A DNA stretch of 64,000 nt. Origin: Gigantopelta aegis. Taxonomy: Eukaryota; Mollusca; Gastropoda; Neomphalida; Peltospiridae. Below are positions 4,521 to 61,558 of this stretch, one piece after another. The DNA lies in the NCBI RefSeq assembly GCF_016097555.1, contig NC_054704.1:46459026-46523025 (forward strand), written 5' to 3'. Each line of letters opens with the position of its first letter. Position 1 is the first letter of the stretch. Below the pieces are notes generated by a model. That model was not told the DNA's origin. It did no database searches and saw only the letters and a program-made list of their open reading frames with translations. A program made the position numbers and the translations under genes.

Positions 4521-7500
4521 GCAAAGGTGGTTCAAAAATTAGGGATCTGCAAGATGAAAGTGGTGCTAATATAAAGGTATGTGGACAACATGATTTGTTG
4601 TAAAATACTTCAGTCTTAGAGAATTGAATGAGTGGATTGGTATTTATTTTTAATTGCTGTTTTTGTTCAGTACCTTGCTGCTTTTGTTTTTTTAATTGTT
4701 TTGACAAGGCTAATTCTATGCATATGTAGTTACAGATTTTTGTTGTGATAACATATTTACAGGCCTCTCCAACTTGCTCAAGTAATTCACACATTGCTTA
4801 CATTAGACTCATTTTGTGTAATCTAATTTTGGTTATACAATTATTTTAAGACTTGGTTTATCATAGACATATATACCATACCAACCTACAGAGTATTATG
4901 CCAAAATAAAAGTATTCATACATCTACTTGTTGAAATTTTCTAGTCTGAATTTCCAAGTTAAAATGTAATTTTTCGAGCCTCATTTATCATCAGATTGTA
5001 CTAAAATCAGTTTGAATGCCTGAAACATTATGACATTTTACTTTCTATTATACATCTTCCCTAAACATTGAATGTTAGACTAAATGCTTGTTTTTGAAGA
5101 TCGATATTAGAGAATCTTTTTAAAAATTTGTTTTATAGGTATTTGATTCCTAGATTACCTTTAAAATATAGCTTTGTTTATCTCCATGGTAACAATTGTA
5201 TGCTGCGACATTTGAACACCCAGTTTCCAGTCCTGTTGAGTCACATGACAGTGATTTTTAAAAATTGACAAACATGTTGTTTCCATTTTCCCCACTATAT
5301 TTGCAGTTCTTTCAAAATAGGTGGCTATTGTCTAGTGTAGATCCCAGGTTTCTAGTGTATAACATAGACATGAATGAATGTGTCACTAATGATTTGGGGT
5401 AGGACGTAGTCCAATAGTAAAGCACTTGTTTGATGTGTGGTTGTTTTAGGATCAGTCTCCATCAGTGGGCTCGTGAGTATTTCTCATTCCAACCAGTGCG
5501 CCATGACTGGTACATATCAAAGGCCATGATATGTACTATCCTGTCTGGAATGTTGCATATAATAGATACCTTGCTACTAATGGAAAATGTAGCACATTTC
5601 CTCTTTAAGACTATACGTCCAAATTACCAAATAGCTGATGATTAATAAATCAATGTGCTCTAGTGGTGTCGTTAAACAAAAACAAACTAATTTTAGAATG
5701 ATTAATTTTGACAGAAGCCAGTTCAGTATGTTTATCAGTTTCACTTGGTGTTTTTGTTTGTTAAAACTGATTACATTTAATTGTATTTTTACAGATATAC
5801 AGCAGAGATGTTCAGCCAGGGGAACAAGTGAAAGTTGAGATCACTGGGGATCAAGACTGTCAAATGAGAGCAAAAGACTTGATTGATAATATTACTGAGA
5901 ACAGTAAGTATGAATTTTGAAACGGTTTAATCTTCTGTACAAGTTTGGTTACGTGAACAAAACCAGAAATGGGATGCAGTGTTATCACAGGGTGAAAGTT
6001 AAGGGTAGAGGCGATGCCCTGCCCTTCTAAAAACAAAATTTTAAAGTTTTGTTATGATATATGTTTGTGTGTTAGCTAACTCTGTGGATATCTGCTATTA
6101 AAGAGGCTGGTGCGATGTATAATACTGCGTTAATTAGTAGTTGTGAAGAGCATTCATTTGGTTAAATAACTTTAAAACTAGGGTAGGATTTTCGGACTCA
6201 ATCTTCACAATTCGTGGAAAAAATGGTGTAATAAAAGCAAATAATTTGTGCAACCATGAGTTGAGGTGTGTAAGACTGGAGTAACAATGCCGATTGTCTG
6301 TAAATCGTCTGAATGCTGTTCACTTAGTTCATGTTCACAAAATGAACGCAGTATAAGCCGACACAATTTAATCTGTTGAACCAGACACAAGTACCGGTAG
6401 AGATATATCAAGTCTGTGATTCATGGACATTCACTTTGGTGAACCCATCAAACATTTGGAAACATGGACTAATAAGATTGGAGTGGGATACTTTCCGTAA
6501 TCTAGTGCGGCAGCTTCAGTTTGATATCTAAAAAAGTCAGTATTTTCATTTCTCCTGAGAGGTAAATGGATAATCACCTCCAAATTATGTAATTTTATGG
6601 ATTCCTCTTGTAGTTTACGCCTCATGGTTAAGAGAGAAAAAACTGATACATGATATACTATTTTGCTGCACGGATAGCAACCCTTGTCAGTGCAGAAAGA
6701 GCCACGTGGGCAAAACCCAAAATGGAAAGGGAGCCTCACTGTCATTAATAAACATTTTATTTGTAGCACCAGTAATATTTGTTTTATTTTGCCTATACAT
6801 TTTATTGATTTTAATGGTTAATATATATTTTTAAAAAAATATCTTGAATTAGTGATTATTTATAGCTACGGTATTGAAATTTGAGGTTCAGTATCGATGT
6901 CAGTATTTTTGTGGTGATTGATCTCTGCAGTCCTTGGTTTTTGAAAATTATAGGTGAGTGGAAAATCACTCTCCAAAATAGATAAAATAGGCAGTATAGA
7001 TCTGATTGGATTTTGACTGGTATGTCTACAACATTGTTTATTAAACCAGTATTTACCAATTTGTTCAACAAAGAGAAATACCAATTTAACGACTGCATGG
7101 AAGCCACTGCCATGTTTTTAATTTTATTGTTTTAATAAAAAGACCTTCCTATCAGCTAAATGAGCTATGAAAACTGTTGATTTTTGTAAAAAGTGGAAAT
7201 AAATATATCCATCTATTTTACATGCACCGTTTGTCGAGTGTAACATGCGCTGTTTTTCCCACTTGTCAGATTGAAATTACATGCGCTGTACGAGCACGAT
7301 CGCACCAGCGCACCTTAAAAAGCAAGGTCTGCCTCTGTATCGGTACGGTAAATTCGGTATTGACACAACATCAATACCGATATCGAGCAGTATTTTCTGT
7401 ATACTCTGCTTTAAGTGCATGCCTGAGTTGAGGCTCACCTGCTAATTAAATTCCACACACACGGCTTTTGTCTGATTTATATCCAACCCATTTTGCATTC

Positions 7501-10500
7501 GTCAGATATTTTGTTAGTGCTTTACTAAATGGTGGGAAACATTTTTCAATACCCAAATTTTTGTATTTTAAAATTTACTTTGTACGGTAAATTGGTATAC
7601 TGCTAAGGTAGATTATAAAAACACAATTTATTCATGTTGATTATTAATTGGAACTGATGGTTGCATTGTGATATTGACATTTTTATTAAATTTCTTTTCA
7701 GGCTATGGCGACAGGTTCGTAACATTTTTATTTTCACTATTTTAACCATTTTACAATGAATGGTCTTTCAAACAAGTGATAAACATTTTGTCATTCTGGA
7801 AAATATTGCCTGTTTTTGTTATATATTACTATTATCATGGGTGAACCAGCTTCAGTGAGCATGAGCATTTGGTTCTAAAGCATATCAATATTTATAAACA
7901 GACAGTTGTTATCCAAATAGCTACATTTTTATTAGTATTTCTTCCATTTAAATTAGCACCAATATAAACTGGCTATGTAGCAAAGTTTACCGTGCGTGTC
8001 AAAAACTAGCAGGCATCAGCAATAAATATTGTTAACTACGTAACCTGTTTCGGTAAGTAAAACGTTTAGTGGTATAGCTTACAGCTAAAACTTATCAACA
8101 CAAAATATTTCAGTGTTTTATCAAAATATGTATGTTGTTCAACAAAACATGTACTTGTAATAATTTATAAAAATTATTTTAAATATTTTAAGGCAAATTA
8201 CAAAATGGAGTCCCCGAGAACCAATGTTAACAGACAACATTTTACAGAAACAAATATAACAATTCTGATGTCTTGCAATCGTGTTAAAAATTGAGCAAAT
8301 GAATGGTTACAATGGTAAAATTGTTTGGTTAAAAAATATAATCTGCATTCAGATTAACAAATATATAAACAGATATCTGGAAAGATATTTGTTAAAACAT
8401 ATAACGACCATATATATTTTGGCAAGTATCTGTAAAGAGAGTTTTGCCAGCAGACACCATTACAATCATGTGACTTCAATAACTAGATAGCATTACAGTT
8501 GAGAACAGACAAAAATAATTCTTAAAATTAAATTTTCTTTCAAATGACAGTCTTTGTAAATCATAGAAAAAAGGTATTTAAAAAATGTACAGTTTTTATG
8601 AGTGGGTCAAGTGCAGTCTTGCTTTTTTTGCCCGTTTTAACTTAATTTGTATGAACATTTTTGTGAATTTAATAGACATTTGTTACTTCCCCCATGCAAA
8701 GGTCAACAACAACAGAAATCTTCAAATGTACATACTGCTGTGCACAAACAATGCAACTACCGAAACAGGTCAACATGCGATACATTGTTAATTCTAAATT
8801 GTAAATCATAAATGTATTGTGACATTAATATTTTTAACAAATATATATTTTGTTTTGTTATATTTCAGGCCATACGGAGGTGATCGAGGAGGAGGAGGGG
8901 GAGGAGGAGGAGGAGGAGGAGGTAAAACATTTTTATTACATATTTTGTTTGCCTCACACAATCTGTTTCTTTTTTATAATTTTGTTTACATAGGGCTGTT
9001 CTTAACTTGTAGCATATATACATTAGTACACATTTTGCATAATTATCCTGGGGGAAATGAAAATGTTTATGATTTACGTTTACATCTAAATTTAATAAAC
9101 AGTATCTTACATGTTTTGTTAACTAGATTTACATCCACAGTTTTTTCACTGAACTCTGATTACTACATTGCAAAGTTTATTTAACCAATATTTTTATGGT
9201 TTATTAGAGAATATTTGACTGGATTTAGCCAATTGCTAATTTTTATCTAATGTAGTTGCATTTATTTGCATCATCATGGTTAGGCCATCGGTCTACAGGC
9301 TGGTAGGTACTGGGTTCGGATCCCAGTCGAGGCATGGGATTTTTAATCCAGATACCGACTCCAAACCCTGAGTGAGTGCTCCGCAAGGCTCAATGGGTAG
9401 GTGTAAACCACTTGCACCGACCAGTGATCCATAACTGGTTCAACAAAGGCCATGGTTTGTGCTATCCTGCCTGTGGGAAGCGCAACTAAAAGATCCCTTG
9501 CTGCCTGTCGTAAAAGGGTAGCCAATGTGGCGACAGCGGGTTTCCTCTAAAAAACAGTGTCAGAATGACCATATGTTTGACGTCCAGTAGCTGATGATAA
9601 AATAAAAAATCAATGTGCTCTAGTGGCGTCGTTAAATAAAACAAACTTTACTCTTCTTTTTTTAGTGGAGCTAATTTTAATTAGATTGTCTATTCACATA
9701 TGTATGTGGATTGAGCAGCACGGTTTTGGATTTTGGTGTGTCAATGGTACTTTGGCAAATACTTTTCAGTTCGGGTCGTTAAGATCACATGGTGCAAGTC
9801 ATGTGATACTTCATTCGCAAAATGGAGGCGTTGTGTGAAGTGGAAAACGACAAATTTTTTATACGCCAGTCTGATGAGTCGTATTATGGTACGGCGTTGT
9901 CAGTCCGTATGTCTGTCTGTTAACTTGTTCTTGTCTGAACCATATCTTGCATACAGGACTTAAATCTCAAATGTAGTAACATGGGATGTCGCATACTATT
10001 ACTAGGTCACTGTGACCTACTTTTCACGGTCTACTGCACATAACAGTAAATCCTTGTCCGGACCATATCTTGCATACAGGACCATCAAACCTCACATGTA
10101 GGAACAACATGGGATGGTGGTGTATCACATACAATTACTAGGTCACTGTGATAAAAATAAATCAAATAATGTGTGTGTATTCTGAACATCATAGGAAAAT
10201 CTTGTTTAGTCTTTGAAGATGTCAGAACTTCATTAATCAGACAGCACCTTTACCAACTGATACTATATTATCAGTAGTTGGTCCAACACAAACTGTGCAT
10301 CCATCCCATTGCATACATTTCACAGAATTAAATCATACCCGTAACATATTCATTAATATCTGTGGTTTTCTGTCAAACTTGTACTTGTACCTCAATGGTA
10401 CTTTTGTTAAACTATATAATTTTTATATATCCTTTAAGAACCGTGCATTGTATCTGAAACAAATTACTTTTGCCAAAATTTTCCTGATTTCCCGAGTCTG

Positions 10501-12654
10501 CATCATTTAAAATTTTATGTAGCTTGTAAATGGAGTGCTGGTTAAACAAAACAATAATTTTTTTTAATTTCTTTTCTTTTTAGGTTACAGAGATGATTAC
10601 AGGTTTGTAGTTTGCGTTCTTTTTAATTTTAGATCATAACTCACACCTTTTGTCATTATTCCCTCGTGACAATTCATCAAAAGGATATAGTCTCAACCAT
10701 ACATATATAGGAACTGGTTCATGGCATCTTGAATGAGTTCATATCTTGCCCGTTTTCATCAAAGGTCACTATTAATAAAAATAGAAATGCAATCATTGCT
10801 CTTGACTTCTCATCTAATTTTCATGAAACCTCGTATAGGAATAAGATCAGGGCATTGTGTATGAGTACCGGCTTCGGTGGCGTAGTGGTTAGGCCATCGG
10901 TCTACAGGCTGGTAGGTACTGGGTTTGGATCCCAGTTGAGGCATGGGATTTTTAATCCAGATACCGACTCCAAACCCTGAGTGAGTGCTCCGCAAGGCTC
11001 AATAGGTAGGTGTAAACCACTTGCACCAACCAGTGATCCATAACTGGTTCAACGAAGGCCATGGTTTGTGCTATCCTGCCTGTGGGAAGCGCAAATAAAA
11101 GATCCCTTGCTGCTAATCAGAAAGAGTAGCCCATGTAGTGGCGACAGCGGGTTTCCTCTCAAAATCTGTGTGGTCCTTAACCATATGTCCGATGCCATAT
11201 AACCGTAAATAAAATGTGTTTAGTGCGTCGTTAAATAAAACATTTCTTTCTTTCGTGTATGAGTTCACATTTCGCCTCTGTGTCCATGGTCTAGGTGAAT
11301 AAAAATATATATGTATTGTCATTGATCTGACTTCATTTCTCATCCTTTAGTTTTGGAATTGTGAAATTGTGTTGGGCCTCATTAGAGAAGATGTATTGTT
11401 TTAGTAGTACTCTAGAATGCTTGTTCAAGTAGTACTCTAGAATGCTTGTTCAAGTAGTACTCTAGAATGCTTGTTCAAGTAGTACTCTAGAATGCTTGTT
11501 CATCTAAGTGGTATATTAAATGTCAAAAATTAACAAAATGAATGGCCAATATCTCCATCTTGACATGATTGGTGGTTCAGGTATACATGTGAAAAATAAA
11601 TTGATGTTTGTGTTTTTTATTTCAGAGGTGGCGGAGGTGGCTATGGTAGACGTGGCGGCGGAGGTGGAGGTGGAGGTGGAGGTGAGTGTATTGATAACCA
11701 GTTTATTTGTTTTTGTAACCAGCGGCCATTTGTAAATATTACTATCATAACAGAACTGTATAGAATGGAAAATTACATTCCTAGTTAATTGTTGATGCTT
11801 GTACACTTTCCTACATGACAAATGAATTGTATTATTAACAAGGTCATTATTAAATTTAATTCTGTGATCTGTGACTTTATTGACTTTAACAAACCAGTGA
11901 AAATCTGATTTTAGATAGAACAAGGAAATAGTAGTGTAGGACTTAATGATGAGTTAATGTACAGCCACTAGGTACATTGCTGAACTTAATATAGGAATTT
12001 GACTAAGCCAAAAATAATATATTGCAGGTGGAGGAAGCAGAGCGTGCTATAAATGTGGAGAGGAGGGACACATATCCCGAGATTGCCCTGATGGAGGTTC
12101 TAGAGGTAGGCGTTTATCCATTATTGCCTCATTTTACCACTTGTTTTACATATCGGGTTGTAATGTGCGTTTTGGTCTTTAGGGAGAGTTATTCTTCTTC
12201 AGTACATAAAACTTAACAGATGGTTTTTATCATTTGGATGTCTGGTTTGCTTAAAATTATGTCCGATTGCATTTCCACTTTAAGTCCCATTTTGACACCA
12301 TTCAGATGTACATTAGTTAAGTGTTATTACACATTTGCAGATTCTGGTTATTCTGGGTCAATGTTTCAAAAGTTAGAGACAGTGCTACACAATTTAAAAA
12401 CATTGCATAATATTAGAATCTGTATGCTTGACTGTTACTTGATGGGTCTGTTTCACTATTCAGTACCAGGTATTTATTGAAATGGCAACTTGTTAAAAGG
12501 TTGAGTTCACTGTGTCTAATTTATGCTTAAAACCTTTGTTTTTCTTTAAGGTGGTGGTGGTGGTGGTGGAGGTGGAGGTGGAGGAAGTCGATCATGCTAC
12601 AAGTGCGGCGAGGAAGGACACATTTCACGCGACTGTCCCGACAATGCTTATTGA
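4521..12654 (+). CDS. Copy A: KH / Gly-rich / double CCHC zinc-knuckle protein, 5'-partial
   Basis: Likely a single-stranded RNA-binding protein. Exons: 4521-4576, 5795-5903, 7702-7714, 8869-8921, 10584-10602, 11626-11681, 12028-12105, 12551-12654. All have AG/GT borders with matching phases; with one base from the missing first exon they give 162 codons and TGA at 12652-12654. The first two exons hold the KH core: the GKGG loop, SKIRDLQDESGANIK, then the beta strand around VKVEITG. Next come a poly-Gly linker with YRDDYR and GYGRRG, and two CX2CX4HX4C knuckles, both [14 protein letters not shown]. The protein ends CPDNAY. Copies B and C show that the missing exon should supply a segment ending VGRIIG, about 4 kb upstream and so outside the window. 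A KH domain of this kind is known from DDX43-type helicases and these knuckles from Vasa/GLH and CNBP proteins, but no helicase follows. Exon structure is secure; the family name is inference. Confidence 0.88.
5400..5690 (+). mobile_element. tRNA-headed SINE (short-head family), intron 2 of A
   Basis: Head GACGTAGTCCAATAGTAAAGC, middle with CCAGTGCGCCATGACTGG, tail GTGGTGTCGTTAAACAAA. Found at the same intron position in B (26308-26590, inverted) and C (50150-50400), so it is ancestral to all three copies. Confidence 0.75.
5904..7701 (+). other. Intron 3 of copy A
   Basis: Numbering counts the exon outside the window. The first part (to about 6315) aligns with C 50618-52790; the rest aligns only with B. 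No transposon end or exon recognised. The Tc1 element, TTAA MITE and truncated SINE that enlarge B's introns are absent. Confidence 0.5.
8180..8770 (+). repeat. Low-copy dispersed repeat in copy A, also in introns of A and C
   Basis: Shares long stretches with about 900-1480 and with 45800-47170 (markers AATGTTAACAGACAACATTT and CAGACAAAAATAA). B's corresponding intron lacks it. No terminal repeats or coding found, so the class is unknown. Confidence 0.5.
9276..9646 (+). mobile_element. tRNA-headed SINE (long-head family), head truncated
   Basis: Begins inside the tRNA-like head at TGGTTAGGCCATCGG (A box) with GGTTCGGATCC (B box) 40 nt on, then the family body and tail GTGGCGTCGTTAAATAAAAC. 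In an intron of A. Confidence 0.75.
9666..9688 (-). repeat. Solo terminus of the CAATCTAATTAAAATTAGCT family
   Basis: One 23-bp end identical to the arms of the palindrome at 38393-38446; no partner end nearby. Confidence 0.5.
10867..11254 (+). mobile_element. Full-length tRNA-headed SINE (long-head family) private to copy A
   Basis: Flanked by a perfect 10-bp duplication GTGTATGAGT (10857-10866 and 11255-11264). Head GGTGGCGTAGTGGTTAGGCC, B box GGTTTGGATCC, tail GTCGTTAAATAAAACATTTC. B has an uninterrupted sequence at this site. Confidence 0.85.
11403..11502 (+). repeat. 25-bp minisatellite, four units, private to copy A
   Basis: Four exact copies of a unit beginning AGTAGTACTCTAGAATGC, about 120 bp upstream of the exon at 11626. 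B has one unit at 20780-20800. Confidence 0.9.
12551..12654 (+). CDS. Last exon of copy A: 12-Gly tract plus second zinc knuckle and stop
   Basis: Acceptor is TTTCTTTAAG, an AAG rather than CAG site. Twelve glycines (one split by the intron) lead to [17 protein letters not shown] and then PDNAY-stop. From the knuckle codons into the 3' UTR this sequence is essentially identical to the opposite-strand exon 19273-19373 of B, which has one glycine fewer. Confidence 0.9.
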
Positions 12655-13195
12655 TTGTGCAGACTTTGTACATTGATTGGATAATTGGATTTATCATCAA
12701 TACAAATGAAACTCGCCTACTGATCGCTAGACTTTATTGTGCACTGGTTTGATTACCAGTTTTATCATTACTTCAGAGAAAAATAAAAACAATGTGTATC
12801 ATGATCGAACTGAATTTGATTTTCTTAAGTAACTACAGTACTTGTCCCTTTGGTTGGTTCAAAATTGGTCAGTGACAAGACAATAGTTTGTAAGGACACC
12901 CACTTAATACTTAGATCCTGGCAACAAACTCTGTTTGAATATTGAAATGGGATTACATCCTCGGCGCCATTTTCTTTCCATAATGTTTGAGACTTGTAAA
13001 GTAATCCATGTACTTTGTGAAACTGACGTTTTCTGCGGGTTGTATACAGTAATTGGATATGTGTTGCACCTGTGTGTAAAGGAACCTGTTCGAAATGGAT
13101 GGCCTGTGTTGTGGCAGTGTTGGTTACCTATTTACATGTACTGGGAGACGAGTTGGAATACACATGGCATCTTTTATGAATCTGTTGCCCCTACT
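12655..13195 (+). other. 3' UTR and downstream flank of copy A, shared with B
   Basis: Mirrors 18716-19272 on the other strand, with very high identity near the stop and lower identity outward. Homology fades after a stretch matching CCTATTTACATGTACTGG. Confidence 0.6.
12782..12787 (+). promoter_or_regulatory. Poly(A) signal of copy A
   Basis: AATAAA 128 nt after the stop codon, in a 3' UTR conserved with B; the transcript end should fall near 12800-12810. Confidence 0.75.
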
Positions 13196-15653: not shown

Positions 15654-16021
15654 AAAAAAGTTTTGTTTTATTTAACGACGCCACTAGAGCACATTTATTT
15701 TTTTATCTTATCGGCTATTGGACGTCAAACATGATCATTCTGACACTGTTTTTTAGAGGAAACCCGCAACTCTTTACGACAGGCAGCAAGGGATCTTTTA
15801 TTTTTGCTTCCCACAGGCAGGATAGCACAAACCATGGCCTTTGTTGAACCAGTTATGGATCACTGGTCGGTGCAAGTGGTTTACACCTACCCATTGAGCC
15901 TTGCGGAGCACTCACTCGGGGTTTGGAGTCAGTATCTGGATTAAAAATCCCATGCCTCGACTGGGATCCGAACCCATTACCTACCAGCCTGTAGACCGAT
16001 GGCCTAACCACGACGCCGGTG
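15654..16021 (-). mobile_element. tRNA-headed SINE (long-head family) in the A/B spacer
   Basis: Head CACCGGCGTCGTGGTTAGGC on the minus strand, B box GGTTCGGATCC, tail GTCGTTAAATAAAACAAAAC. Near full length. Confidence 0.8.
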
Positions 16022-22200: not shown

Positions 22201-22639
22201 AAGAATGACATTGACAATGTTGTCATATCACCAATGTCTTGCAGGAGGGTGGATGGATACTGTTAAATAGTTACTGGTGCATTTATAAAAACTCACTATT
22301 GTATTTTATTAACCAAGTAGAAATGGTTAAAATTGCAGTACCAACATTTTTATGGTTATAAACTGCATACTAATGTTTTTTTTTAAAAAAAGACAACTTT
22401 CATATTTGTAGAGCATTTCCTTGAAATTAAAAATATATTTAGGAAGTTCTACCTTAGATAAAAATTAGCAATTGGCTATTATCCAGTCAAATATTTAGAA
22501 AACCATAAAAATATTGGTCACTTAAAACTTTGCAATGTAGTAATAGTGCAGTAAAAAGACTTGTGGATGTAAATTTAGTTAACAAAACATTTAAGATACT
22601 GTTATTAAATTTAGATGCAACGTGAATCATAATTTTTTT

Positions 22640-45015: not shown

Positions 45016-45227
45016 GGTCGTTCTAAAGAATAAAAGGTATAAGAGCTACGTATAGTTTGGATTTTAGTAGGCCGAGAGTTCATTAATCATACCAAACCAA
45101 CCTTCTTATAAACGCCTTGTGGCAACATCATTAGGTACAACTAGACGATAAATATTTAGCATCTCTGCTTTAGGCATGTTTTGACGTATTGCACCCAAAA
45201 TTGCTCGATATCTTTATATCTTATTAA

Positions 45228-45240
45228 ATCCCACGTGAAG
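45228..45240 (+). promoter_or_regulatory. Conserved promoter-proximal block with CACGTG E-box (copy C)
   Basis: CACGTGAAG lies about 30 bp upstream of the C start and, inverted at 38243-38251, just upstream of the B start. The surrounding 120 bp (an ACAACTAG...GATAAATATTTAGC stretch, then CAAAATT-CTCGA) also align between B and C. It is the best candidate for a shared core promoter or 5' UTR element. Function is inferred from conservation only. Confidence 0.45.
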
Positions 45241-45266
45241 TTAAAATAAATTGTTTGTCGTTAGTA

Positions 45267-45420
45267 ATGACAAGTTTTAGGGGTGGTTTATCAGGTCGAG
45301 GGGGTGGAAGTCCCCAAAAGCAAAATTCAGAAAGTTCAAACTGGCGTTCACATGAAGACGACAATGGAGGGAATTCTACATGTCTGTATATCGAGCAAAA
45401 AGATGTTGGTAGAATCATTG
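45267..45420 (+). CDS. First coding exon of copy C, with RG-rich N-terminus and KH start
   Basis: Reads M-T-S-F-R then GGLSGRGGG, a Ser/Asn/Asp-rich stretch, and the KH opening [14 protein letters not shown]. It ends with one base of a Gly codon before the donor gtaaaa at 45421; the next exon begins GC-AAA-GGT, restoring G-K-G-G. An upstream TTG in the same frame at 45255 is not needed as a start. The last 14 residues match B's first exon; the preceding 40 do not exist in B. Confidence 0.85.
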
Positions 45421-48400: not shown

Positions 48401-51400
48401 TTCATTGTCATATAGATTTACAGATAGTATACCTGGTAAATGTAATTTAGTATTGTAACAAAATTATGATAAAGAACACGGGACCTCATATCCGTTGAAC
48501 TAGTAAAATTGTTTTTACTAAGTAACTCTTTGAAGCAAAATATCAGTGTTTAATCGGTCATATAGGTATGGGTCACGAAAACGGTATTTGTCGGATCATG
48601 TAACAGTATTTTATTAGTGCAAAATAAGCAGCTTATGAACAAGTTTTCACCGAGTTAATTAAATTTTAATTCAACAACAAAAATTTATGTATATATGAAA
48701 TAATAGAATTACACAAAATCATGCTTTAACAGTCAGTAACACATTTTAATTTTAGCGCCTATTTCTGAGGCATGATTCTGTCAAAATGTCACTTTGAACT
48801 CTCAGATACTTAACACTGAATTAGTATCTATGAATGGGTGTTCTTCAAGTTTTTCACCATTCATCTGCGACTGTGTACAATGCAAGTGATCACCGATTTT
48901 ACAATGCAACATCGATTTTGCCTTGTGTTATTGACATGGTGAAGTCAAACTGGTTAAAGCGAAAGTTTTGCCTGCGCATGTAAGCCGTGGACTATAGATG
49001 ATCATAATGCTTGCATCTTAACAGTTGTTAGGTATTTAAACCAAAAGCTATTGGGTACAGTTTTGATTAAGATATTACTGATAACTGTTCTGTTTTATGA
49101 TCTAGCTACTGACTTTCACGTTTTGACGAAAACTATAATTTGAAAATCATAGAACTGAAAGTATGTTACACATTATCATGTGACATAATTCATCATTACA
49201 ATGCTTACCGAAAAAAGTTTCCTATTGGTTCTGATCATCACAGGGCATGGGATCAGATCAAAAAGATATTCCCATATAATTTAAAATCATGAAGACTAAC
49301 AAATGCCTCCATTTATTTCTTGTGGAAAAATATTTTAGTTTTTTTTTTAATGTCTCAACACACCAACTTATGTGCAGGGTGTTCATTATCTTTGAAAATA
49401 GAAAGTTTGAGAAAAAGTAGGCGGCTCTATTTACTGAAGGTAGAAAAATGTATAGCTGTATACATGAAATATCGACTGCAGTACTGGCAATAATAGCCAC
49501 CAATAATTGCCGCCTGTTGCCAACTAATGAACACAAGTGTTTGTTAAAATAATGTGTCGGTGATGAACTATGTGCAGTGTTTGTTTAGCGTTGGATACCC
49601 ATTAGTCATCAATTTTAATTTTTCTATATATTTGATTTTGCAGGCAAAGGTGGTTCAAAAATTAGGGATCTACAGAATGAAAGTGGCGCTAATATAAAGG
49701 TACATGGATATAACATGATTCCTTGTTAAATACTTAACAAGTCTTATCAAATTTAATGAGTGGATGGTATGTTTTTTAAAAGTGCTATTTTTTTTTTATT
49801 ACCATGCTAGTAATTGTTTTAACATGGCTAATTCTATGTATGTAGTTATAGATTTTTAATTTTAATTGCATATTTACAGGCCTTGCAAAATTGCTGCCAG
49901 TCCTATTGAGAAAGAGTGATTTTTAAAAATTAACAAATATGGTGTTTCCATTTTTTTCCACCACATTTGGGATTCTTTCACAACAGGTCTGTTCAGTGAG
50001 TGCTGCTTTTGGCCTCTTTGGAAAATACTCAACCCTAAGAGCTTAGTGGAGATCCCAGGTTTCTAGTGTATAACCTAGACATGAATGTGTCAAGATCTCC
50101 AGCCTGGAGGACAAGTCAAAGTAGAGACTGTAAAATGTTTAGAATGATTTGTGGCGGCATGTAGCTTGATGCTCAGTTTGAGTAGGATCGATTCCTATCT
50201 GTGGGCGCATTGAGCTATTTCCCGTTCCAGCCACTACTGATATATCAAAGCTTGTGGCATGTACTATCCTGTCTATGGGATGGTACATATAAAAGATCCT
50301 TTACTATATATCAGAATTACCAAATGTTTGACATCCAATAGCCGATGATATTTAATAAATCAATGTCGTCTAGCAGTGTCGTTAAATAAAAAAGAAACTT
50401 TAAACTTTAAAATGATTAATTTTGACAAAAGCCAGTTCAGTATGTTTATCAGTTTCGCTTAGTGTTTTTGTTTGTCAAAACTGATTACATTTAATTGTAT
50501 TTTTACAGATATACAGCAGAGATGTTCAGCGAGGGGAACAAGTGAAAGTTGAGATCACAGGGGATCAAGACTGTCAAATGAGAGCAAAAGACTTGATTGA
50601 TAATATTACTGAGAACAGTAAGTATGAATTTGGAAATTCTGTAATCTTCTGTACAAGTTAGGTTACATTAACAAAACCAGCAGTGGGATGCAGTGTTCTC
50701 GCTGGGTGAAAATTAAAAGGGGGGGGGGGGGGGCAGTGTCCTGCCTCTCCAACCCCCTGCCCCTCCAACCCTCAAAAAACATATAGCAACATTTGAAAGT
50801 TTGGTTACTCATTAGTCTGCGCAACACAAAAGTTTGCACATGTTAATTACGTTACATTACGTCTTGAAACAAGTGTTGGGTATGTTTGTAAATAAACAAA
50901 CAACGTTAATTTAATTCATAAAACAATTGTTAAAACAACACATCTTGATTGTGAATATATATGTATAAAACTGATAGATAACAATTTGATTGAAAAAAAA
51001 CCCCTCTGAATTAATGCACTATAAGTATACTTTTACCAGCTTCGATCAGCTTTGTGTTTTTGTATCACCTGTCAACATGACATTGTGTCTCTCACCGCTG
51101 TAATTATCAACCTTGTATATCAACTTACACAAATTTACATAGAAGCTTCAACACATACCTTATTGTAATTTATGAATCCATAAATGAAATAAATGTTTTA
51201 TTTTATCTGTTAACATAAACATCTAAGCATACTTTGAATTTCCCTCTGAGTGACACAACATAACCAATGTGACTGATTAGTCTATAACGCTTACAGCATG
51301 GCCTATTTTTAGCTATAGTCTGTTTCATAATATCATTGATTGTTCTATATTTCTAACGAACACTGTATGTGCTCATTTACACAGTTGATAACAGACAACT

Positions 51401-53335
51401 TTTATTGAATAATGATCATATATTTTGACATAGGCTTTTTTTGTGTATTGTAATTTTGTGTTATCCAAACTAAGAAGCATGGAACACCATTTATATTTAT
51501 TTTATTTGCATAATCTAAATTAAATTGAAGCAAACTGTAATAGGAAGTGTTTATTATCTAGAACTTAAATTGAAACAAACTGTAATAGGAAGTGTTTATT
51601 GTCTAGAACTTATGAAAAGTTAGATTCAGTACCGGATTGTTGTTTTTGTGAACAGTAGTGACATAAGTAGTTATTTTAATGTTAGCTGCGCAGAGTTATC
51701 AGGACTTGAAACGGCCTGTGGCCAGGTTGCCAAATGCGACCAATGTCCCATTTGGGTGACTTAAATATTAAAAAAATAATGGCGTTACTCGCCCAAATAA
51801 TATTATTTGGGTGATCTTCTTTCTATAATATATGAGTTACTATTAATAATTATATGACATATATTTATTCCACATTAAAATCTTCCTTGTGAGTCGCAAA
51901 ATTGAATGTATTGGCTTACCGTAATTTGCTGACATTCATTTATCAAAACATTGATGTTGTAGACTGAATGCAGTCATTCTGATCCAGTTCATAACCATTC
52001 AGAATATCTCAGCCAAATATGCGATCAAATCCGAACATTCGTCGTGTTCCGATTTCTGGTTGTTTTTTAAAAATCTTGTTTTAATTGACTATTTAATTTG
52101 GTTTCTATTGAACTGACTAATGAAATGAATTGTTACTATTTTCGGAGTAAAATCACGATCATGATGTCCTCTGCTGGGTGGAATTTTCTTAAAAGAACAT
52201 CAAGAAGCAAAGGAAAAAAAAGCAAGCTTACCAAAGAATTTGAATTTGTTATTCAGTTCTGTCTAATGCAAATAAAGTTAGGTTCTGTTAGGATAAGGAG
52301 AACCTTACCCCACTCCGTGTTTATTGTTCCATTGTACTGTAGCGGTGAAACAAATATTTTTAAAGAATGATTTTAATGTTAAAATATAACACAAATGCTT
52401 AGATGTGCAGACTAAGGTGCCACCAGTGTATATGTTTGTGTGTTAGCCAACTCTGGATATCTGGTTTAAAAAAGGTTGGTGTGATGTATACCAGTAATGC
52501 TGTGTTAATTAGTAGTTGTGAACTGGGGTGGGGGGTGAACCCTGTGTGTTGGCTAACTCTCTGTGGATATCTGGTACAAAAAAGGTTGGTATACTGTGGT
52601 AATTAATAGTTGTGAAGAGCGTTCATTTGTCAACACAACTTGTGAACTGGGGTAATTTTCTGTGTCAGTCTTCACAACTCATGGAAAAAATGGCCGAACA
52701 AACACAAATAATTTGTGCCACTATGAGTTGGGGTGTGTGAGAGTGGAGTGACAGTGCAGATTCTCTGTAAATCGCCTGAACGTTCTCCAGAGGAGGGACG
52801 GACGTAGCCCAGTGGTAAAGCGCTTGCTTGATGCACAGTTGGTTTGGGATTGATCTCCGTCGATGGGCCCACTGGGCTATTTCTTGTTCCAGCCAGTGTA
52901 CCACCACTGGTATATCAACGTCTGTGGTATATACTACCCTGTCTGTGGGATGGTACATATAAAAGATCCCTTGCTACGAATGCAAAAAATGTAGCGGGTT
53001 TCATCAATGTTCTCTGGTGTTGTCATTAAACAAAACAAACTATAGAGTATTTGTATTTAATAACTGGTGAATTGTAACTAAAACTGAATTAGACAGCTCA
53101 AACATTTATAGCAATATTTTATGTAGACAATGACTGTATAATTAAAATGTTGATCTGATCGTATAACTTTAAATAATATCTTATTTATAACTTTATTTTA
53201 ATTATTATAATAACAGACTGAAATTGAATGATCTTTTCCATCTTTTCAGGTGATGGTTTTGGTGATGAAGGAGGTATGTATGTATATTTTTTTTATTGAT
53301 ATACAGTGGAACCTCGTTAGTCCGGACTCCAGTAG

Positions 53336-53369
<34 letters not shown>

Positions 53370-56300
53370 TGTATGTATGTATGTATGTATGTATGTATGT
53401 ATATATATATGTGTATAATGTATATAGTTTAGCTATATTTTTTATGCTATCTTTATATAAAAAAACATAACTGAAACTAAAAGCATCATGTTTTTATTTT
53501 CTAAGATTAAATTGACAGACCCTAGATTTTTAAACAGTACTGCATACTATTCACTATTAGCCATTTTGGATAATTAAAATTGGCAGGGGTTCAAAAATTA
53601 AAAAAAAAATTACTTGCCACAGGGCAAGTGCCAATCAGATATTCACTTGCCCCATATATTTTTCCACTTGCCCATACTTCTTAAGGTAACCAATTGTGTT
53701 ACTCCTATTTAATTTAATACAGTGCTTAAAGGCATATTGTCACAGACCACTGACCTATTTACTGGTCTAACAAAGTATTACCTGAACAAACATTATTTGA
53801 TTTGTCCCTAAATGTACTTTACTCAACCATTTTCATAACCACCATACTCCATTAATGAATGATATTTTGTAAAAAAAATTGAATTATGGCAATGGTCCAT
53901 AATTCAAAAACTAAAATTACCGAGTGGGTTGACATGGATTTCACTCCATCATGGTTCAGTTCAGGTGATGCAATATCTAGCTTTGGTTTCCAACAATTAA
54001 TGTATTTTTTATTTATTATCCATTTTAAGAGAAATAAGGTCCTTAAATCCGTGACAGTATGCCTTTAATAGTGTAATAATCTTGAAAGTAATTGGTTTAA
54101 TTGCACAAATAAAGAATTTTGCCAATAGGTTACACCACTTACCTAGGAAGTACTAAATATATATGTCTCTCTTCTCTATTTGTTGATTTAAACTTTATTT
54201 TTTAAATAGTGTCCATTTGTTGATTTAAACTTTGTTATTTGTTTGGTAGTGTCCACTTGTTCATCTAAATATAATTATTGTGTTGATGTATGCCTTAGTG
54301 ACCACTTGTATGGACGTAGATGTTGTGAGATCCCTTTCCACTCGTGAGCCATTCTTTTATGGCTGGCATTGGTTCAAAAATGTTTAGGGATTTTGGTCCA
54401 TGCATCATTATTGTGTGTATATTATTTAACATTTTGTGCCTCAATACACTTCTCTGGGGTGTTTTTACCCTGTTAATAACTGAAAAAAGTCTCTCGCAAA
54501 CAGCCGTGGCTGGGCTCAAAGTAAACATGAGCTCTGTTACTTTTCAAATATTTTTAAATAGTGCAGGCTTGGTAAACAACAGCCTCCCTGGGCTTACATC
54601 GATTGCAGCCTTGTATTTTTAACTTCTTGAGCATAATTTATTTGTTAAAAACTATTAATAAAGCAGAACAAAAATCATGTATGCTTAGAGGGCATCGCAC
54701 CATCATGATTATGACGTAGGGCTAATGAAATATAACTTTACCTTACCTGTTCATTTTACACGAACGTAGATTTACATTTGTAAAGTACTAAAAAACCATT
54801 AAGTATGTTCTGCTACAAGGTTTATTATATCTAAACTAAAATGTCTTGCAACTTTTATAAGAATACAGTTCATAATATTTAGGCTCTATTCAAGTGAACT
54901 CAGAAATTATAAACTTACTTTAGGCCCCGTTTATTTGCAAAGAGCAGATTCCGGAACCACGTTAACGTCTAATTTAATTTGAATATGACAAATTTATAAA
55001 CTGTATCCCACCTCATTTACCATGTTTGCAAGGATTAAACATTATGATTGCACACACAAGGCATGTATACTTTATTTTTATATAAGCTGTAAGTTTTACC
55101 GAGATTTGTAACAAAATTTTAAAAAGTTTTTAGGTGTTACATTAGTCACTTGTCATCGGGCATATGAAGTTAACATAATTACTTGCCTGGCATGAAAATT
55201 CCACTTGGCACGGGCGTCGGGCGATGGCATTTTTGAACCCCTGATTGGACATAATTTGTTGGATTGTATTGTTTGGATTATCCATTTCTGTATATATCTG
55301 AAGTGTTTCTGATCATTCTAGTACAGTGAAACCTCTCAAAATCGGACCCTCTGTAAACCGGAATTCCCTAAAAACCGGACGTTTTTCTATGGTCCCTTTT
55401 TAAAACTCTGTGCAGAAGAGAACCTTGATAATCCAGATACCTCTTAAAACTGGAGTTTTTACATGGACCAGAGGGTGTCCGGTTTAGAGGAGTTTTAGTG
55501 TATTATGAAATGCATTGTTGTTATTTTTATAAACACACATATCTGAGAAGTAATGGTTATGGAGATGAGCTCTAGTCTATTTTTAGAGGATATTTCCCTG
55601 TTTTAATGTCACAGATCCTTGTAACTTTATATAGATATTTTACATGTTTGCAGATAACCAAATTTAGTGTCCATTTTCACAAGTTGAAACTAGGGTCTGT
55701 GACTTAACTAAAGTTTAGTTTTTATGTTTTAGAAAAGTTGTAAACTCAACTGATTTCAATGTTCATGTATTTATAAAGACAAGTTACAATTATTGAATTT
55801 CATGATACTTTCTTTATTGATATTAACTTATTTCTGGGTTTTAAGAACTTATCAATATGAACTAATTAAAATGACCAAATATACCCACATAAGGTACAGG
55901 TATGTTGTCAGACATGAAACTTTACTCATTATAATTTATCATATAATATCTTACATTTTCAGTGCAATCAAAGTATGTGATATTTTTCAGATCATATACT
56001 TTAAGAATTTGGTAACTTTGCAAATTAGATGTAAATTAGTCGAGGTCTCGGCACTAGGTTTATGGACATTTAAGCAAACCTACTTGGGTGGCACTCCATG
56101 ATTGACGTATGCATTCATAGTCATCAAATAAAAACATTTCAATGGCAATTTGACACTGAAAGCTGTCCAGCATTCAGAAAACAAAAAACGTTAGGCATAA
56201 CTTTATTTTGATGTAAGGACATCCAAAATGACATCATTCGAGTTTGACGTCATTTCCATTCAAAAATACACTGCACCACATATTCTTATGTCATTTGAAT

Positions 56301-59300
56301 ATCAAGTAATGGCAGACTGGAATTAAAGTTGCGTGTACAGTTTACAAAAACATGTTGTATTAAGCTTGAGCTATTATTACCCTCATGTATTTCGGTATAG
56401 TCAATATCATATATTAGGAATACAAAATGTATTATGCTCGCCAGAGGCTCGCATAACACAATTTTTATTCCTAACACAAACCTTGAAATAAAAAAAATTG
56501 GTGTACCTGACACAATGTCCTGCACCAATCAATTTGTGCCTGACATAAAAGAAATTGTACCTGTCACAAAACATTGTAAATAAAAATGAAATAAATTATG
56601 TTTTATGTTGTTAACAGTTTAATAATTGATATATTTAATTACTAAATAACCAATGCAGCAATTAAGGCAATAGTCACCAAATGATGACATTTATTATTGT
56701 TATGTACTTACTAGTCTGTGATGCATTAATATAAGTCCTCTGGTAAAGCTGTATCCTAACCAGCCGTGAGCTACATGAGCGATTATTTTAGAAATCATGG
56801 ATTTCAATTGCCGTATTCTAACCGCACGCGTGCGACACGACAGATAAATGTGTTGCGTCATGCGCATACAGTTAGGATGCAGCAATGGAAATCAATGATT
56901 TCTAAAATAATCGCTCGCGGCCGGTTAGAATAGGTCTTAAGAAACACATGAAACTGTCGTCACTATCACTTTGTGTTGAACTTTCAGATTCATGATGATC
57001 TAACTCAGACTCGTCCATTTTTTTCAATGTCATCAGTGTCTTGTTTGTGGTAATATTCTATATTTTTGGTTGCCGAGTGACCTTTAACATTTGACACACG
57101 CAGATTTGTGGACCCTTTGATCTATGCGTCCGAAAAATCGTGATTATACTGCATTTCTTTTTTTAAAAATTTGCAGAGCGAGCACGTCACAAGTGTAACG
57201 TCGTCTTTTGGTGTTTTCTTCAAACTGTAGCCACAAAGAGGCATTTGTTTTAACTAAATCCTCCTTTTGCAATTTTAGTTCAGTGCTAGATTTTAAGATA
57301 CTACTCTGCGGGATATTCGTTTGGGAATTTTTGGGGAACCATTTAATCAGCGGCTGCCCTCCGTGGATACTGGGAACAGGGACAGTTGATTTGTCATTAC
57401 CGGTACCTGTCTGTTCTTTTACAGCAAAAACTGAAGTTATTTTGTTCAACATCCTTTAATTGTTAACCACGAGGCAATTTGAATTGCAAACTTTAAACGA
57501 AAACGCCACAGGAAGTATACGCTAAGTACGAAAGGTCAATTACTAATATGCGTGACATCACTTTTTACAATGTCAGTTCCCGCAAAATCGAGACTATGAA
57601 AAATCCTACTAAACAGGTACGCGGACTGTAGATGAACTTCGTGTTGGACTGTCAAGTGCCCCGCGAACCGGTGCGAATCCCACTGGTACACATTTGTGTT
57701 TTTTCATGCGTAATCAATTTTTTTTTTAATCGGTGCATTAAGTGTATTCGACTCCAAAACAGCCGGCTTTTACTACAATGCGAGTTTCGGACATGGTGAC
57801 TGGCGCAATCGACATTGTTACTGACAAGTTACAAATTTGTACTGGACAATGACCGTGACCGGCCGATAACGAAAAACACTCTGGTAATAACCTCTATTTA
57901 TCAGCGTAGTTATGTGGTAATTAAATTTTATTTCAACTTGTCAGGGAGTATTTATTTTAAATAGTTTTTGTTGTTTTTATAGGTTCCAATTACAGGAATG
58001 GAGATGAAAACAGGTGGGTATTATTTTATATACAGGTAAAACTACTTGAGCTTCATCTTATCTCAAGAGACAATATTCATTCATAAATTATCTAATTTTA
58101 CACAAAGTAGCCTGAATTAGGCAGCCAACTATCTTAAGAGTTGCTTGTCTTACATTAATTGCCTTTATGCACAGCCGATCTATGATTTATCTCCGTCGGT
58201 GGGCCCATTGTGAAAATTTAACTTATGTACAGGTATACCATTTATAAATGTCCTTTCTGCATAGGCAAAATGTAGCGGGTTTCCTCTGATGACTTTGTGT
58301 TAGAATGACCAATTGCTTGACATCCAATAACCGATGATTAATTAATCAATGTGCTTCAGTGGTGTCGTTAAACAAAACAAATCTGGGATTTTTCCTACTC
58401 AAAATAAATGCATATTAATTTTTTAAAGCTATTGACTATGGAATGTTTATATGGAAGGGTTTTTAATCATTACATGCACCGTGAGGTAACTGAACATACT
58501 TTTTGTTTCAGAAGTGGAGGCGACTTTGGCAGGCGTGGTGGCAGAGGTTAGTGGTTTTGTTTACATTGGTTCAAATACATACAATATAAACTGGATCAGA
58601 CAAAGTAACATTAAATACATATTTAGCTTTAAAGCGATAAGACATTGCATTGTTAAATGGTGCTTGGTCTGTTACATATTTTATTGACATGAATCTACCA
58701 TATATTTCCGTGTATTAGCCAACTCCATGGATAAACCAACCCCTTAGGTTAACCCTAAATATCTATTGCAAAATTATAGGTCCCCTATATAAGGCGAATT
58801 TGCTTTTGTCAAATAATAGACATGGATTAATTTGTAAAAATAAATTGCTGACAAATGCATTAAAAAAAAAATCAACCAATGATTTTGGTAAAAATATCGC
58901 AAATGACCTGGGACTTCAGTTGGGTTAAAGTTCTTTTATTCAGGAATCGCCTGATGGGATGTCAAGATTCCTAAGTCATAAAAACATATTCACACACAAC
59001 AACCCGACTGTGGGTCAGGTCGTTTGAATAATGATGCTGGTTGTATTAATTGTGCAGAACTCGATGAATATAACAACTTGCAATGCAGAAAAGCACCTCT
59101 GTCTTGCTTGAATGTTTAAAAGTCTTTGACTCTAGAGAACACCAAGTGACCAGATAAACAATAGGTGGGCTTGTTACTGAACTGACTACCTGTCCTGGGC
59201 CCCGTTCCATGATGTGATCTTAGGGCTAAAATCGCCCTTAGTAAAAATTGGTAGCCCCATAACGTATATAAGAAAAAGAAAACAGAGAGAGAAAAGCAAA

Positions 59301-61558
59301 ATCATTTATTTTTATTTAAACGTTTTAGGGTGGGTTTTTATAAATCGTAAGCATTTAGGCCTACTGTGAAATATACTCTTATTAAAACTACATGATAGCA
59401 CCTAATGAACAATAAAGTTTTTAGTTCTTAATCATTAAACAGAATCTGGGGGAAATATTAAAAACTACAACATTAATATGTGACAGAATGAAGTGTCTCA
59501 TATGTGTCATTATATGTATGGAGCAAAAATAAATAAATAATAATAATACTCCCTACCTACCTAAACTACTGGTCGGAAATGAACAACACAGATATTTGTA
59601 AGAATGGCCTCAAAGGAGGGGGTAAATAAGGTATGAAAAACAAATCTAGTTACCACCACAAAATAAAAACCCCGACCTATTCTACCTACAGTAACTTGTT
59701 TGGTACGATTCCAGAAACACACAATAGTGTTTTATTATTATTATTAAATTTGTTTAGGCCTAATCTCAAATGAAGGCTTACACAGTAGTATTGAAACATG
59801 TCATACGGTTTTCACGTGTAGAACTGTTTACTAATCGTACCATTCTGAAGATTGATATTGCATATTTTAATACTTAAAATGGCTGTAACTATCTTCAATA
59901 GGTGTTATTTTGAAGAATCTTTAACAAAACTTGCCTTTATTCCCAAACATTAGCGTTTTTTATTGATGACAATAAACTTGGATATGCCGTAAGCAAATTA
60001 TCCCAGACAGGGGATCGCCATGTGTGGATTTGCATAGGTAGCCTAGAAGGAAATAAACTGCGATAGAGTTATGGTTTAGTTTAGACTTCAGCTAGCAGCA
60101 AATAGTCTTGATCATACAAGGCGTTAGTTATAAGTAGGCGTCAAAACAACGGGCCATGTTGTTGATTGTCATAAAATGACTACAAGTACGAATAGATAAT
60201 CCATGAACCAAAATTCCATGACTTTCCATGACCCGTACGAACCCTGTATATCTGGCCACTGAATTACATCAAATCATTTTTATTAGTCTGCTGTGTTAAA
60301 AAAATCCTACAACTGGCAAATATACTCCTTTATTTTACTAAATCATATTGTGCAGCCACCACCTGTGAGACAGACGCGGAGAGCAATTAACAGTTAAGAC
60401 GACTCGTGGCAGCAGAGAGCGCACACATAAAAGGTGGAATTTCACACTGATGAATTAAATGTCTTGTTGGTTGTGGAGTGACTGGATATGCCAAAACCTT
60501 TGGTAGCCCGGCGGACTACAGGGGTTAGACAACTGGTAGTCCGAGTGAGAAATCGGTAGCCAAAATATCCCAGGCTACCCCTAAGGTCGAGCCCTGTGCA
60601 CCACAACTGGTCAAAATCTGTAGTATGTGCTTTCCTGTCTGTGTGTTAGGAAAAATGTAGCAGGTTTCCTCTGATGACTTCGTGTCAGAATGACCAAATG
60701 TTTGACATCCAATTGCCGATGATTAATTCATCAATGTGCTCCAGTGGTGTCGTTAAAACAAAACAAACTTAAAACTGAGTTGAGAGTGAATACAACTGAA
60801 GCTGACAATACCAGAGACACAGGAAAACAATAGAAACCAAAATCAGAGACAGCTTTATACCATTAGAAGTAGAAAGAATAAATTATAGCTAAACTGTTTT
60901 AAAATTATAGTGTATGTGAAATGCAATGTAAAATATCAAAATGTAACAGAAAAATCAACCTTCTCTGAGGGTATTCGAACTACAGACTAAGAGTCACAAA
61001 GACTTGTGATATACGAGAGTCCAGCGCTCTACCTATTGAGCTAATAGGGAAATTACCACTCGCTGCTGTCAGTAGGAGCACTTTATACCAACACTACTAC
61101 AATTCTGTCTAGCTGTAGTCTGTGTAGGCCCATTTCGATAGTAATGTCAGGGGCATGTTCAGAAAGGCGAGCGCTCGCAGTCATTTGTTTTTGTGATGTA
61201 ATCTTACCTATAATGCATTATAGCATTATATGTATTGTTACAGTTTAGTATTCACTGACGTTACACATAAGGAAGAAAACCATTCACCATTACAGCCTTC
61301 TTCAGTCTTCCACTCGATGACATGGCTTTTATTATTGAATTGGCAGCAGTCACTTCGTCATTGTGTAGAAAGCAAATGTCAACTGTCTTATTTTATTTTT
61401 TAAATCTCATAAGGTTGTGGTACTGACTTATGATGCGTAATGACTGATTGCTGTTTCATGTATTTCAGGTGGAGGTGGTGGAAGATCGTGTTACAAGTGT
61501 GGGGAAGAAGGTCACATATCAAGAGACTGTACAAAAGAAGGATATAACAATGACCGAG
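45267..61558 (+). CDS. Copy C: KH / RG-rich / CCHC zinc-knuckle protein, 3'-partial (possible DDX43- or Vasa-like helicase N-terminus)
   Basis: Exons: 45267-45420, 49644-49699, 50509-50617, 53250-53273, 57983-58013, 58512-58546, 61469-61558. Together they give 166 codons plus one base, with a donor at 61559, so the gene continues beyond the window. The first exon adds about 40 residues before the KH domain, with an RGG-type stretch (GGLSGRGGG) and an acidic/Asn-rich segment, then [14 protein letters not shown]. The KH core follows, with LQN where A and B have LQD. The linker is less glycine-only than in A/B ([29 protein letters not shown]). One knuckle, [14 protein letters not shown], is followed by [10 protein letters not shown] and a phase-1 donor. 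ATG 45267 is the first in-frame methionine. An N-terminal RG/KH region resembles DDX43 and Gly-rich/CCHC regions resemble Vasa/GLH; a DEAD-box domain would have to lie outside the window. A further zinc-knuckle exon as in A/B is equally possible. Confidence 0.82.
46277..46668 (+). mobile_element. Full-length tRNA-headed SINE (long-head family) private to copy C
   Basis: Flanked by CATTCAGGCGA (46266-46276) and CATTCAGGTGA (46669-46679). Intron 1 of A keeps the uninterrupted site near 325-342. Head CCGGCCTCGGTGGCGTCATG, tail GTTAAATAAAACATTTC. Confidence 0.85.
47359..47790. mobile_element. Foldback-type element with repetitive arms, copy 2
   Basis: Same arm motif (GTCATTTCATACC and complement) with a short centre; in intron 1 of C. 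Confidence 0.6.
47987..48238 (+). repeat. 36-bp minisatellite, seven units
   Basis: Unit AATACCCAGACAAATATTGG plus 16 more bases; seven head-to-tail units with a few substitutions, in intron 1 of C. Confidence 0.9.
50150..50400 (+). mobile_element. tRNA-headed SINE (short-head family), intron 2 of C, decayed
   Basis: Same site as in A and B. The head is eroded and an internal segment is missing, but GTGTCGTTAAATAAA remains. Confidence 0.65.
50618..52790 (+). other. Intron 3 of copy C, 5' part
   Basis: Contains a C-specific insertion of about 1.6 kb (roughly 50730-52400) relative to A, a 45-bp tandem duplication at 51522-51611, and a tandem duplication of about 125 bp at 52433-52640 with TGTGTGTTRGCYAACTCT. 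Homology with A ends near 52790. Confidence 0.5.
52797..53041 (+). mobile_element. tRNA-headed SINE (short-head family) in C
   Basis: Head GGACGTAGCCCAGTGGTAAA, B box region GGGATTGATCTCC, tail GTTGTCATTAAACAAAAC with a deletion before it. It begins where A/C intron homology stops. Confidence 0.75.
53339..53402 (+). repeat. (ATGT)n microsatellite
   Basis: About 15 units, 66 bp after exon 53250-53273 of C. Confidence 0.95.
53584..55243 (-). mobile_element. hAT transposon relic
   Basis: Perfect 14-bp ends CAGGGGTTCAAAAA / TTTTTGAACCCCTG, ATTGG directly repeated on both sides, 1660 bp. It contains a hAT dimerisation domain on the minus strand. Lies in the intron between exons 53250-53273 and 57983-58013 of C. 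Confidence 0.75.
54295..54622 (-). pseudogene. hAT transposase C-terminal (hATC) fragment
   Basis: The frame reads [20 protein letters not shown] and [17 protein letters not shown], matching the hATC pattern (ATxxCERxFS, then NRxK, LxxxML). One frame break just upstream; the DDE core is missing. The nearest known relatives would be ZNF862/KIAA1586-like domesticated hATs. Not a host gene. Confidence 0.7.
55324..55500. mobile_element. pogo-type MITE
   Basis: Ends CAGTGAAACCTCTC and GAGGAGTTTTAGTG, TA on each side, repeated CCGGA motifs inside; 177 bp. Another left end of this type lies at about 53302-53335. Confidence 0.7.
56286..56700. other. Intron of C, nothing recognised
   Basis: Short repeated CTGACACAA / CCTGACATAA motifs at 56509-56570; no exon or transposon ends. 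Confidence 0.35.
56740..56937. mobile_element. Palindromic MITE
   Basis: Two arms of about 80 bp, inverted, sharing GCGATTATTTTAGAAATCAT and ATTCTAACC. A long imperfect hairpin. Confidence 0.65.
56940..57452 (-). pseudogene. Possible hAT-type zinc-finger (BED/TTF-like) fragment
   Basis: A 102-codon frame from 57452 ends near [16 protein letters not shown]; further along in another frame [18 protein letters not shown] is readable. The Cys...G.xN.R...LK.H pattern is that of N-terminal zinc fingers of ZNF862-like hATs. It lies outside the hAT relic at 53584-55243, so it may be a different element. Confidence 0.4.
58184..58381 (+). mobile_element. SINE fragment in C
   Basis: Short-head family body from CTCCGTCGGTGGGCCCATTG and full tail GGTGTCGTTAAACAAAAC; internal deletion. 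Confidence 0.6.
58547..60595 (+). other. Intron of C with degraded repeats
   Basis: Repeat-like stretches: GGGCTAAAATCGCCCTTAG at 59222-59240 and an end-like CCCGTACGAACCCTG at 60232-60246. No exon supported. Confidence 0.35.
60596..60770 (+). mobile_element. SINE fragment in C
   Basis: Begins at CACCACAACTGGTC in the body and ends GGTGTCGTTAAAACAAAAC. Confidence 0.55.
60965..61052 (-). repeat. tRNA-like sequence with A and B boxes
   Basis: Minus strand reads TAGCTCAATAGGTAGAGCGC then, 50 nt later, GTAGTTCGAATACCCTC. These are D-arm and T-arm sequences, but the part between is too long and does not fold as an anticodon arm, so a tRNA pseudogene or SINE head is likelier than a working tRNA. 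Confidence 0.5.
61469..61558 (+). CDS. Zinc-knuckle exon of copy C (last exon visible)
   Basis: [21 protein letters not shown] followed by [10 protein letters not shown] (first 20 residues of the knuckle part are the family core), phase 1 to phase 1 as in the A exon 12028-12105 and B exon 19858-19781. Third-position differences from A/B are many, unlike the KH exons. Confidence 0.85.

Follow-up and report, generated by a model that had tools for sequence, protein, structure and literature searches.

Three alternating copies of a putative KH and CCHC zinc-knuckle gene in a 64-kb stretch of the Gigantopelta aegis genome

The 64,000-nucleotide stretch of DNA analyzed here (the window) carries three diverged copies, A, B and C, of a gene that combines one type-I KH domain with Gly-rich tracts and CCHC zinc knuckles. 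We assign a probability of roughly 0.6 to the reading in which the copies are protein-coding paralogs for short, non-catalytic, single-strand RNA-binding proteins, which would serve as a chaperone or as a component of an mRNP or granule rather than as a helicase. In the same reading, an inverted segmental duplication would have given rise to the copies, A and B probably exchanged 3′-end sequence after the duplication, and C would be a mosaic joining a recently shared front half, from the upstream region to the KH, with an older-diverged knuckle half.

How might such a protein act? Type-I KH domains bind short single-stranded RNA or DNA via the GxxG loop, and CCHC knuckles bind single-stranded nucleic acid. 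The GKGG loop of the single KH domain would grip a few nucleotides, the flexible Gly/RG-rich linker would join the KH to the knuckles, and the one or two knuckles would add further single-strand contacts and avidity. We infer the RNA binding, the lack of catalysis and the cellular role from the domain families. Since a catalytic domain was not found for A or B, multivalent binding of single-stranded RNA is the best-supported function, and RNA chaperone or mRNP/granule component, with no helicase, is the likely role. If expressed, the products would be compact natural KH–linker–knuckle proteins, enzyme-free in A and B at least, whose component parts are known from germline helicases (DDX43 and Vasa) and from SF1. 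Three diverged copies in one window would offer a test of how combinations of RNA-binding domains arise and persist; should the germline guess be true, the proteins might partner or compete with piRNA-pathway helicases while lacking a helicase domain themselves.

Arrangement and gene models of the three copies

A six-frame pattern scan of the window located five CX2CX4HX4C knuckles and three KH exons with the GKGG motif. Across 200 mononucleotide shuffles, the knuckle pattern averaged 0.04 occurrences and never exceeded 1. These exons lie on the strands and at the places given by the sequence-only reading, bearing out its alternating arrangement: in the window, A is on the plus, B on the minus and C on the plus strand, with A and B tail to tail and B and C head to head. 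Within the window, A and B have two knuckles each and C has one, while the GKGG exon and the KH exon that follows it are common to all three. The exons of each copy, eight in A, nine in B and seven in C, have GT–AG boundaries and link up in phase with no stop, which implies 21 introns within the window (seven, eight and six, respectively).

Copy A (4521–12654, plus strand) has eight in-window exons with GT–AG boundaries and a continuous frame, at 4521–4576, 5795–5903, 7702–7714, 8869–8921, 10584–10602, 11626–11681, 12028–12105 and 12551–12654. The seventh is its first knuckle exon, found by both the pattern scan and the exon chain, and the eighth, from the exon chain, holds the second knuckle and the TGA stop. 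Even without exon 1, A matches Pfam KH_1 at 4.6e-10, and it matches zf-CCHC at 2.3e-18. A search for the first strand of the KH ending at a phase-1 donor yielded the initial exons of both B and C. The same search in 1–4521 found no exon 1 of this kind for A, which therefore probably lies to the left of the window.

Copy B (19273–38237, minus strand) is a complete gene of nine exons encoding 179 amino acids: 38237–38186 (with the ATG), 32773–32718, 26197–26089, 24058–24040, 22865–22816, 21614–21596, 20649–20594, 19858–19781 and 19373–19273 (with the TGA stop). Its protein runs from the KH through a Gly-rich middle to two 14-residue knuckles and the stop. In the profile check of this protein, KH_1 (E=5.9e-16) and two zf-CCHC matches (E=1.7e-18) were above the Pfam cut-offs, while the KH-like MOEP19 model reached 24.5 bits, under its cut-off of 30. 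NCBIfam gave weak matches only, far under the cut-offs, and Rfam gave zero gathering matches. The exon chains and Pfam matches thus agree with the earlier description of a multicopy family whose short proteins combine a KH with Gly-rich tracts and CCHC knuckles.

Copy C (45267–61558, plus strand) is an in-phase chain of seven exons: 45267–45420, which holds the ATG and an RG-rich N-terminus that B does not have, 49644–49699, 50509–50617, 53250–53273, 57983–58013, 58512–58546 and 61469–61558. KH_1 matches exons 1–3 (1.8e-15) and zf-CCHC the last two exons (8.1e-10); the knuckle exon at 61469–61558 encodes the 14-residue knuckle also found in A and B. Relative to the sequence-only reading, the initial exons of B and C, both with an ATG, are additions, and the last four C exons further extend the chain in phase. 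The 3′ end of C is ambiguous: it either terminates at the TAG at 61561–61563, giving 167 amino acids, or is spliced to exons outside the window. The donor at 61558 agrees with the consensus at six of nine positions, compared with five to eight for the 21 other donors, and an AATAAA lies past the TAG at 61685, a hexamer present roughly once per 467 bases of this strand. The cluster limits proposed earlier, 4521–61558, are read differently here: 4521 is the first base of the first in-window KH exon of A rather than a gene start, and 61558 is the candidate donor of a knuckle exon that is possibly the last exon of C.

Do the three copies represent one collapsed locus? This is unlikely, because they differ by about 10–15% in alignable introns and carry different insertions. 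On the same divergence we reject haplotype duplication as their source. A mis-join of the assembly behind the three-copy arrangement is possible.

Relation to known KH and knuckle proteins

The family shares with DDX43 (HAGE) an N-terminal type-I KH with a G-x-G-G loop, as the KH_1 matches of B and C attest. DDX43, however, has a helicase core, which was not found for A or B, and the family has knuckles. Among five approximate reference KH segments, DDX43 scored highest (46.6–47.4 bits), ahead of hnRNP K KH3 (40.8–42.4) and IGF2BP2 (40.0–41.2), and the KH of the family is 34–37% identical to the approximate human DDX43 segment. According to PMC7949032, only DDX43 orthologs conserve an Ala three residues ahead of the GxxG loop, and the DDX43 KH prefers pyrimidines. 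The corresponding residue is Arg in B and C (VGRIIGKGG) and falls outside the window in A. This marker is weak, because an IGF2BP2 KH retrieved in a search of the PDB also has Ala there. The KH is thus only marginally nearest to DDX43 and has Arg at the Ala marker, which leaves the proposed derivation from a germline-type helicase unsupported.

With Vasa and GLH proteins, the family shares a Gly-rich region with CCHC knuckles, as judged from the zf-CCHC match of B to what is a general model. The DEAD box of those proteins was not found for A or B, and the family has a KH. A precedent for the domain pairing is SF1/BBP, a single protein with a zinc knuckle after its KH (PMC4666396). Hence the KH–knuckle combination, which the sequence-only reading had called unusual, is unusual rather than unprecedented, since SF1 already combines both, and that claim was overstated to this extent. 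The family differs from SF1/BBP by its Gly-rich linker, and SF1/BBP has a QUA2 region after the KH, whereas, judged by reading, the frame of the family enters YGDR/Gly-rich sequence directly. The SF1/KHDC4-type KH model PF22675 matches B at E=0.0012 (19.1 bits) and C at 0.00044 (20.5 bits), under the cut-off of 30 bits, and KH_1 matches far better. CNBP/HEXBP-type proteins have the same CxxCGxxGHxxxxC knuckles with an RG/Gly-rich region, but the family has only one or two knuckles and adds a KH.

With the KH as query, 30 pattern matches in viral contigs included no relative, and 157 in genome contigs included four, all titled as archaeal, with 36–47% identity over 34–44 residues, which we judged to be generic KH sequences. 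In the PDB, the KH matched 43 distinct chains at E values of 0.1 or less; these were type-I KHs of a general kind, and none was named DDX43. The knuckles matched 22 distinct chains, including 17 from retroviral nucleocapsid or Gag, which we take as generic CCHC. Literature searches of the open-access subset listed no such KH–knuckle gene family.

Seven of eight helicase patterns (DEAD, H[RK]IGR, [PA]TREL, TG[ST]GKT, RG[LI]D, [ILV]VATDV and PTPIQ) are absent from the six frames of the window, in a scan that misses any motif split by an intron. The eighth, SAT[WFL] for motif III, occurs five times with no other helicase motif near. On this result, neither A nor B can be classed with DDX43 or Vasa. 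The negative result applies to A and B, while C may continue past base 64000.

Divergence, constraint and the composition of C

The exons of A and B differ at 21 of 480 sites (4.4%), which is less than half the divergence of their alignable noncoding sequence outside repeats (414 of 4209, 9.8%; Fisher P=3e-5). These sums were taken from alignment rows with overlapping rows unmerged; a row cross-matching the two knuckle exons (64 exon sites, 15 differences) was left out of the exon count, and its five noncoding sites stay in the noncoding sum. Three exons differ in length between A and B, by 6, 3 and 3 nucleotides (e4, the exon after the KH pair, 13/19; the Gly exon G1 53/50; the last coding exon 101/98), and all are multiples of three, compared with 25 of 109 noncoding indels; of these three exon indels, the aligner placed two within exons. 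In the KH exons, dN and dS are 0.015 and 0.134 for A–C, 0.051 and 0.152 for A–B, and 0.051 and 0.151 for B–C. Weaker constraint in the KH of B is uncertain, because only about 33 synonymous sites are available.

Noncoding sequence of A and B diverges by 10.6% (5′ part), 12.2% (middle) and 8.5% (3′ part). For A and C the values are 15.2% (5′ part) and 15.7% (further upstream), and for B and C the value is 10.1%. A and C are thus somewhat the most distant pair by introns, while the three pairs are about equal by KH synonymous sites. At the 3′ end, a 183-nucleotide stretch from the last exon of A into the 3′ UTR (12553–12735) is matched by B at 99%, followed by a 129-nucleotide stretch at 90%. 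This near-identity fits local gene conversion between the inverted arms.

In C, the front half is close to the other copies. Its KH exons are as near to A and B as A is to B (dS 0.13–0.15), and its first exon has two differences from that of B in the shared 42 nucleotides in an in-frame comparison. Upstream of B, 38238–38389 (minus strand) is 77% identical to C 45102–45245 over 154 aligned positions and represents shared promoter-proximal sequence. The introns of C still align to A within 46668–52780 (plus strand; A 324–6313), and 3′ of 52780 a sensitive search found only the knuckle exons and short repeat-type matches to A and B.

The knuckle half of C behaves differently. All five occurrences encode an identical 14-residue knuckle, even though the types differ from each other by 8–11 nucleotides: 10 between the first and second knuckles of A, 11 between C and the first, and 8 between C and the second. 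In 11 of 14 codons the C knuckle differs synonymously from the first knuckle of A, and in 7 of 14 from the second, where the counting of mutational paths scores one step as nonsynonymous although the residues are the same. By comparison, the KH exons of A and C differ synonymously in 4 of 52 codons (Fisher P=3.7e-7 for the first knuckle of A, 9e-4 for the second). From this contrast, the front and back halves of C appear to be of different ages. The phases of the last four C exons are 1-1 (e4), 1-2 (e5), 2-1 (G2) and 1-1 (the knuckle exon), while e4 of A and B has phase 1-2 and precedes a Gly exon absent from C. Three of these four exons are like those of A and B in phase and order, so correspondence is somewhat favored. 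C therefore looks like a mosaic of a young front half, from upstream to the KH, and an older-diverged knuckle half.

The age contrast could have another source. The C knuckle exon might be an extra one, with no counterpart among the two knuckle exons of A and B, in which case the saturation would reflect old repeats within the gene and C would be no mosaic. Since the two knuckles of A themselves differ at 10 synonymous positions, knuckles within one gene are about equally old, and the C knuckle is closer in DNA to the second knuckle of A (80.6%) than to the first (69.7%). We nevertheless regard this explanation as rather unlikely: the four post-KH exons of C resemble those of A and B in order, and three in phase, e4 of C equals that of B at 13 of 18 positions in a count made by eye, and the C introns past 52780 fit, without requiring, a different back half. 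Beyond the mosaic reading of C, we tentatively envisage, at somewhat less than even odds, a modular exchange in which duplication or gene conversion carries the front half (about 7.5 kb, comprising the upstream region and KH exons) from one paralog to another, where it joins independent, much older Gly-rich/knuckle back halves, which would yield new helicase-free KH–knuckle RNA-binding proteins.

Two further explanations bear on the coding potential and origin of the cluster. C could represent the 5′ end of a larger parental gene with KH, Gly-rich region, knuckles and a DEAD-box core past base 64000, of which A and B would be truncated derivatives. A usable GT ends the knuckle exon of C, the RG-rich N-terminus is kept in C and absent in B, and DDX43 leads the five reference KHs by 5–6 bits. 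An oyster Vasa carries three knuckles together with DEAD (PMC4530894), and DDX43 joins KH to DEAD, a combination unique among DEAD-box proteins to the knowledge of the authors of PMC8025031. The scarcity of helicase patterns in the window, the in-frame TAG reached if the donor is unused, with the AATAAA beyond it, and the missing Ala, though a weak marker, make this parental gene improbable. Still less probable, in our estimate very unlikely, is that at least some of the copies are decaying pseudogenes or are expressed only as noncoding RNA. The dN of the B KH and the absence of the RG-rich N-terminus mean that B could be decaying, and the trinucleotide-repeat Gly tracts vary in length. However, none of the 24 exons contains a stop or frameshift, and both the exon length differences in multiples of three and the low exon divergence between A and B speak for coding function.

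Mobile elements and repeats in the window

The second intron of B contains a Tc1/mariner-like transposase at 27114–28191 (minus strand; HTH_Tnp_Tc3_2 4.2e-12, DDE_3 1.9e-9), which is broken by a frame change, since it occupies two overlapping frames. An inverted-repeat element with TTAA ends is present in two copies, at 61723–62553 (plus strand) beside C and at 24194–24922 (minus strand) in B. The inverted ends of the copy near C are TTAAAGGGACACACCCTAGTT and TTAAAGCCGCACACCCTAGTT, and the two copies agree at about 95% in the 3′ part and 87% in the 5′ part. The TTAA ends presumably reflect a piggyBac-type target. The match between C 61723–62553 and B 24922–24194 was considered as shared intron order and rejected; the inverted TTAA-ended termini in both identify a mobile element. 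Between B and C, a 214-residue open frame at 39822–40466 (plus strand) has no Pfam match and may belong to a mobile element.

An interspersed repeat family occurs on both strands at 9274–9560, 10867–11254, 15766–16017, 21077–21460, 30926–31137 and 46276–46663, and its inverted pairs are 90–97% alike. It is probably a tRNA-derived SINE, because a tRNA-like match lies inside one member at 21385–21456 (minus strand). Tandem repeats were also observed. An A intron contains 4.3 copies of a 25-bp unit at 11396–11502 (plus strand), of which B has about one unit, seen by eye, at about 20774–20805 (minus strand). The first intron of C contains 6.9 copies of a 36-bp unit at 47983–48231, whose minus strand is open as a repetitive peptide. 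Sixty consecutive C residues (G on the strand of B) at 22641–22700 in a B intron are possibly a weak point of sequencing or assembly. Just past C, an 80-bp satellite (62596–64000; 17.6 copies, 99% matches) runs off the end of the window.
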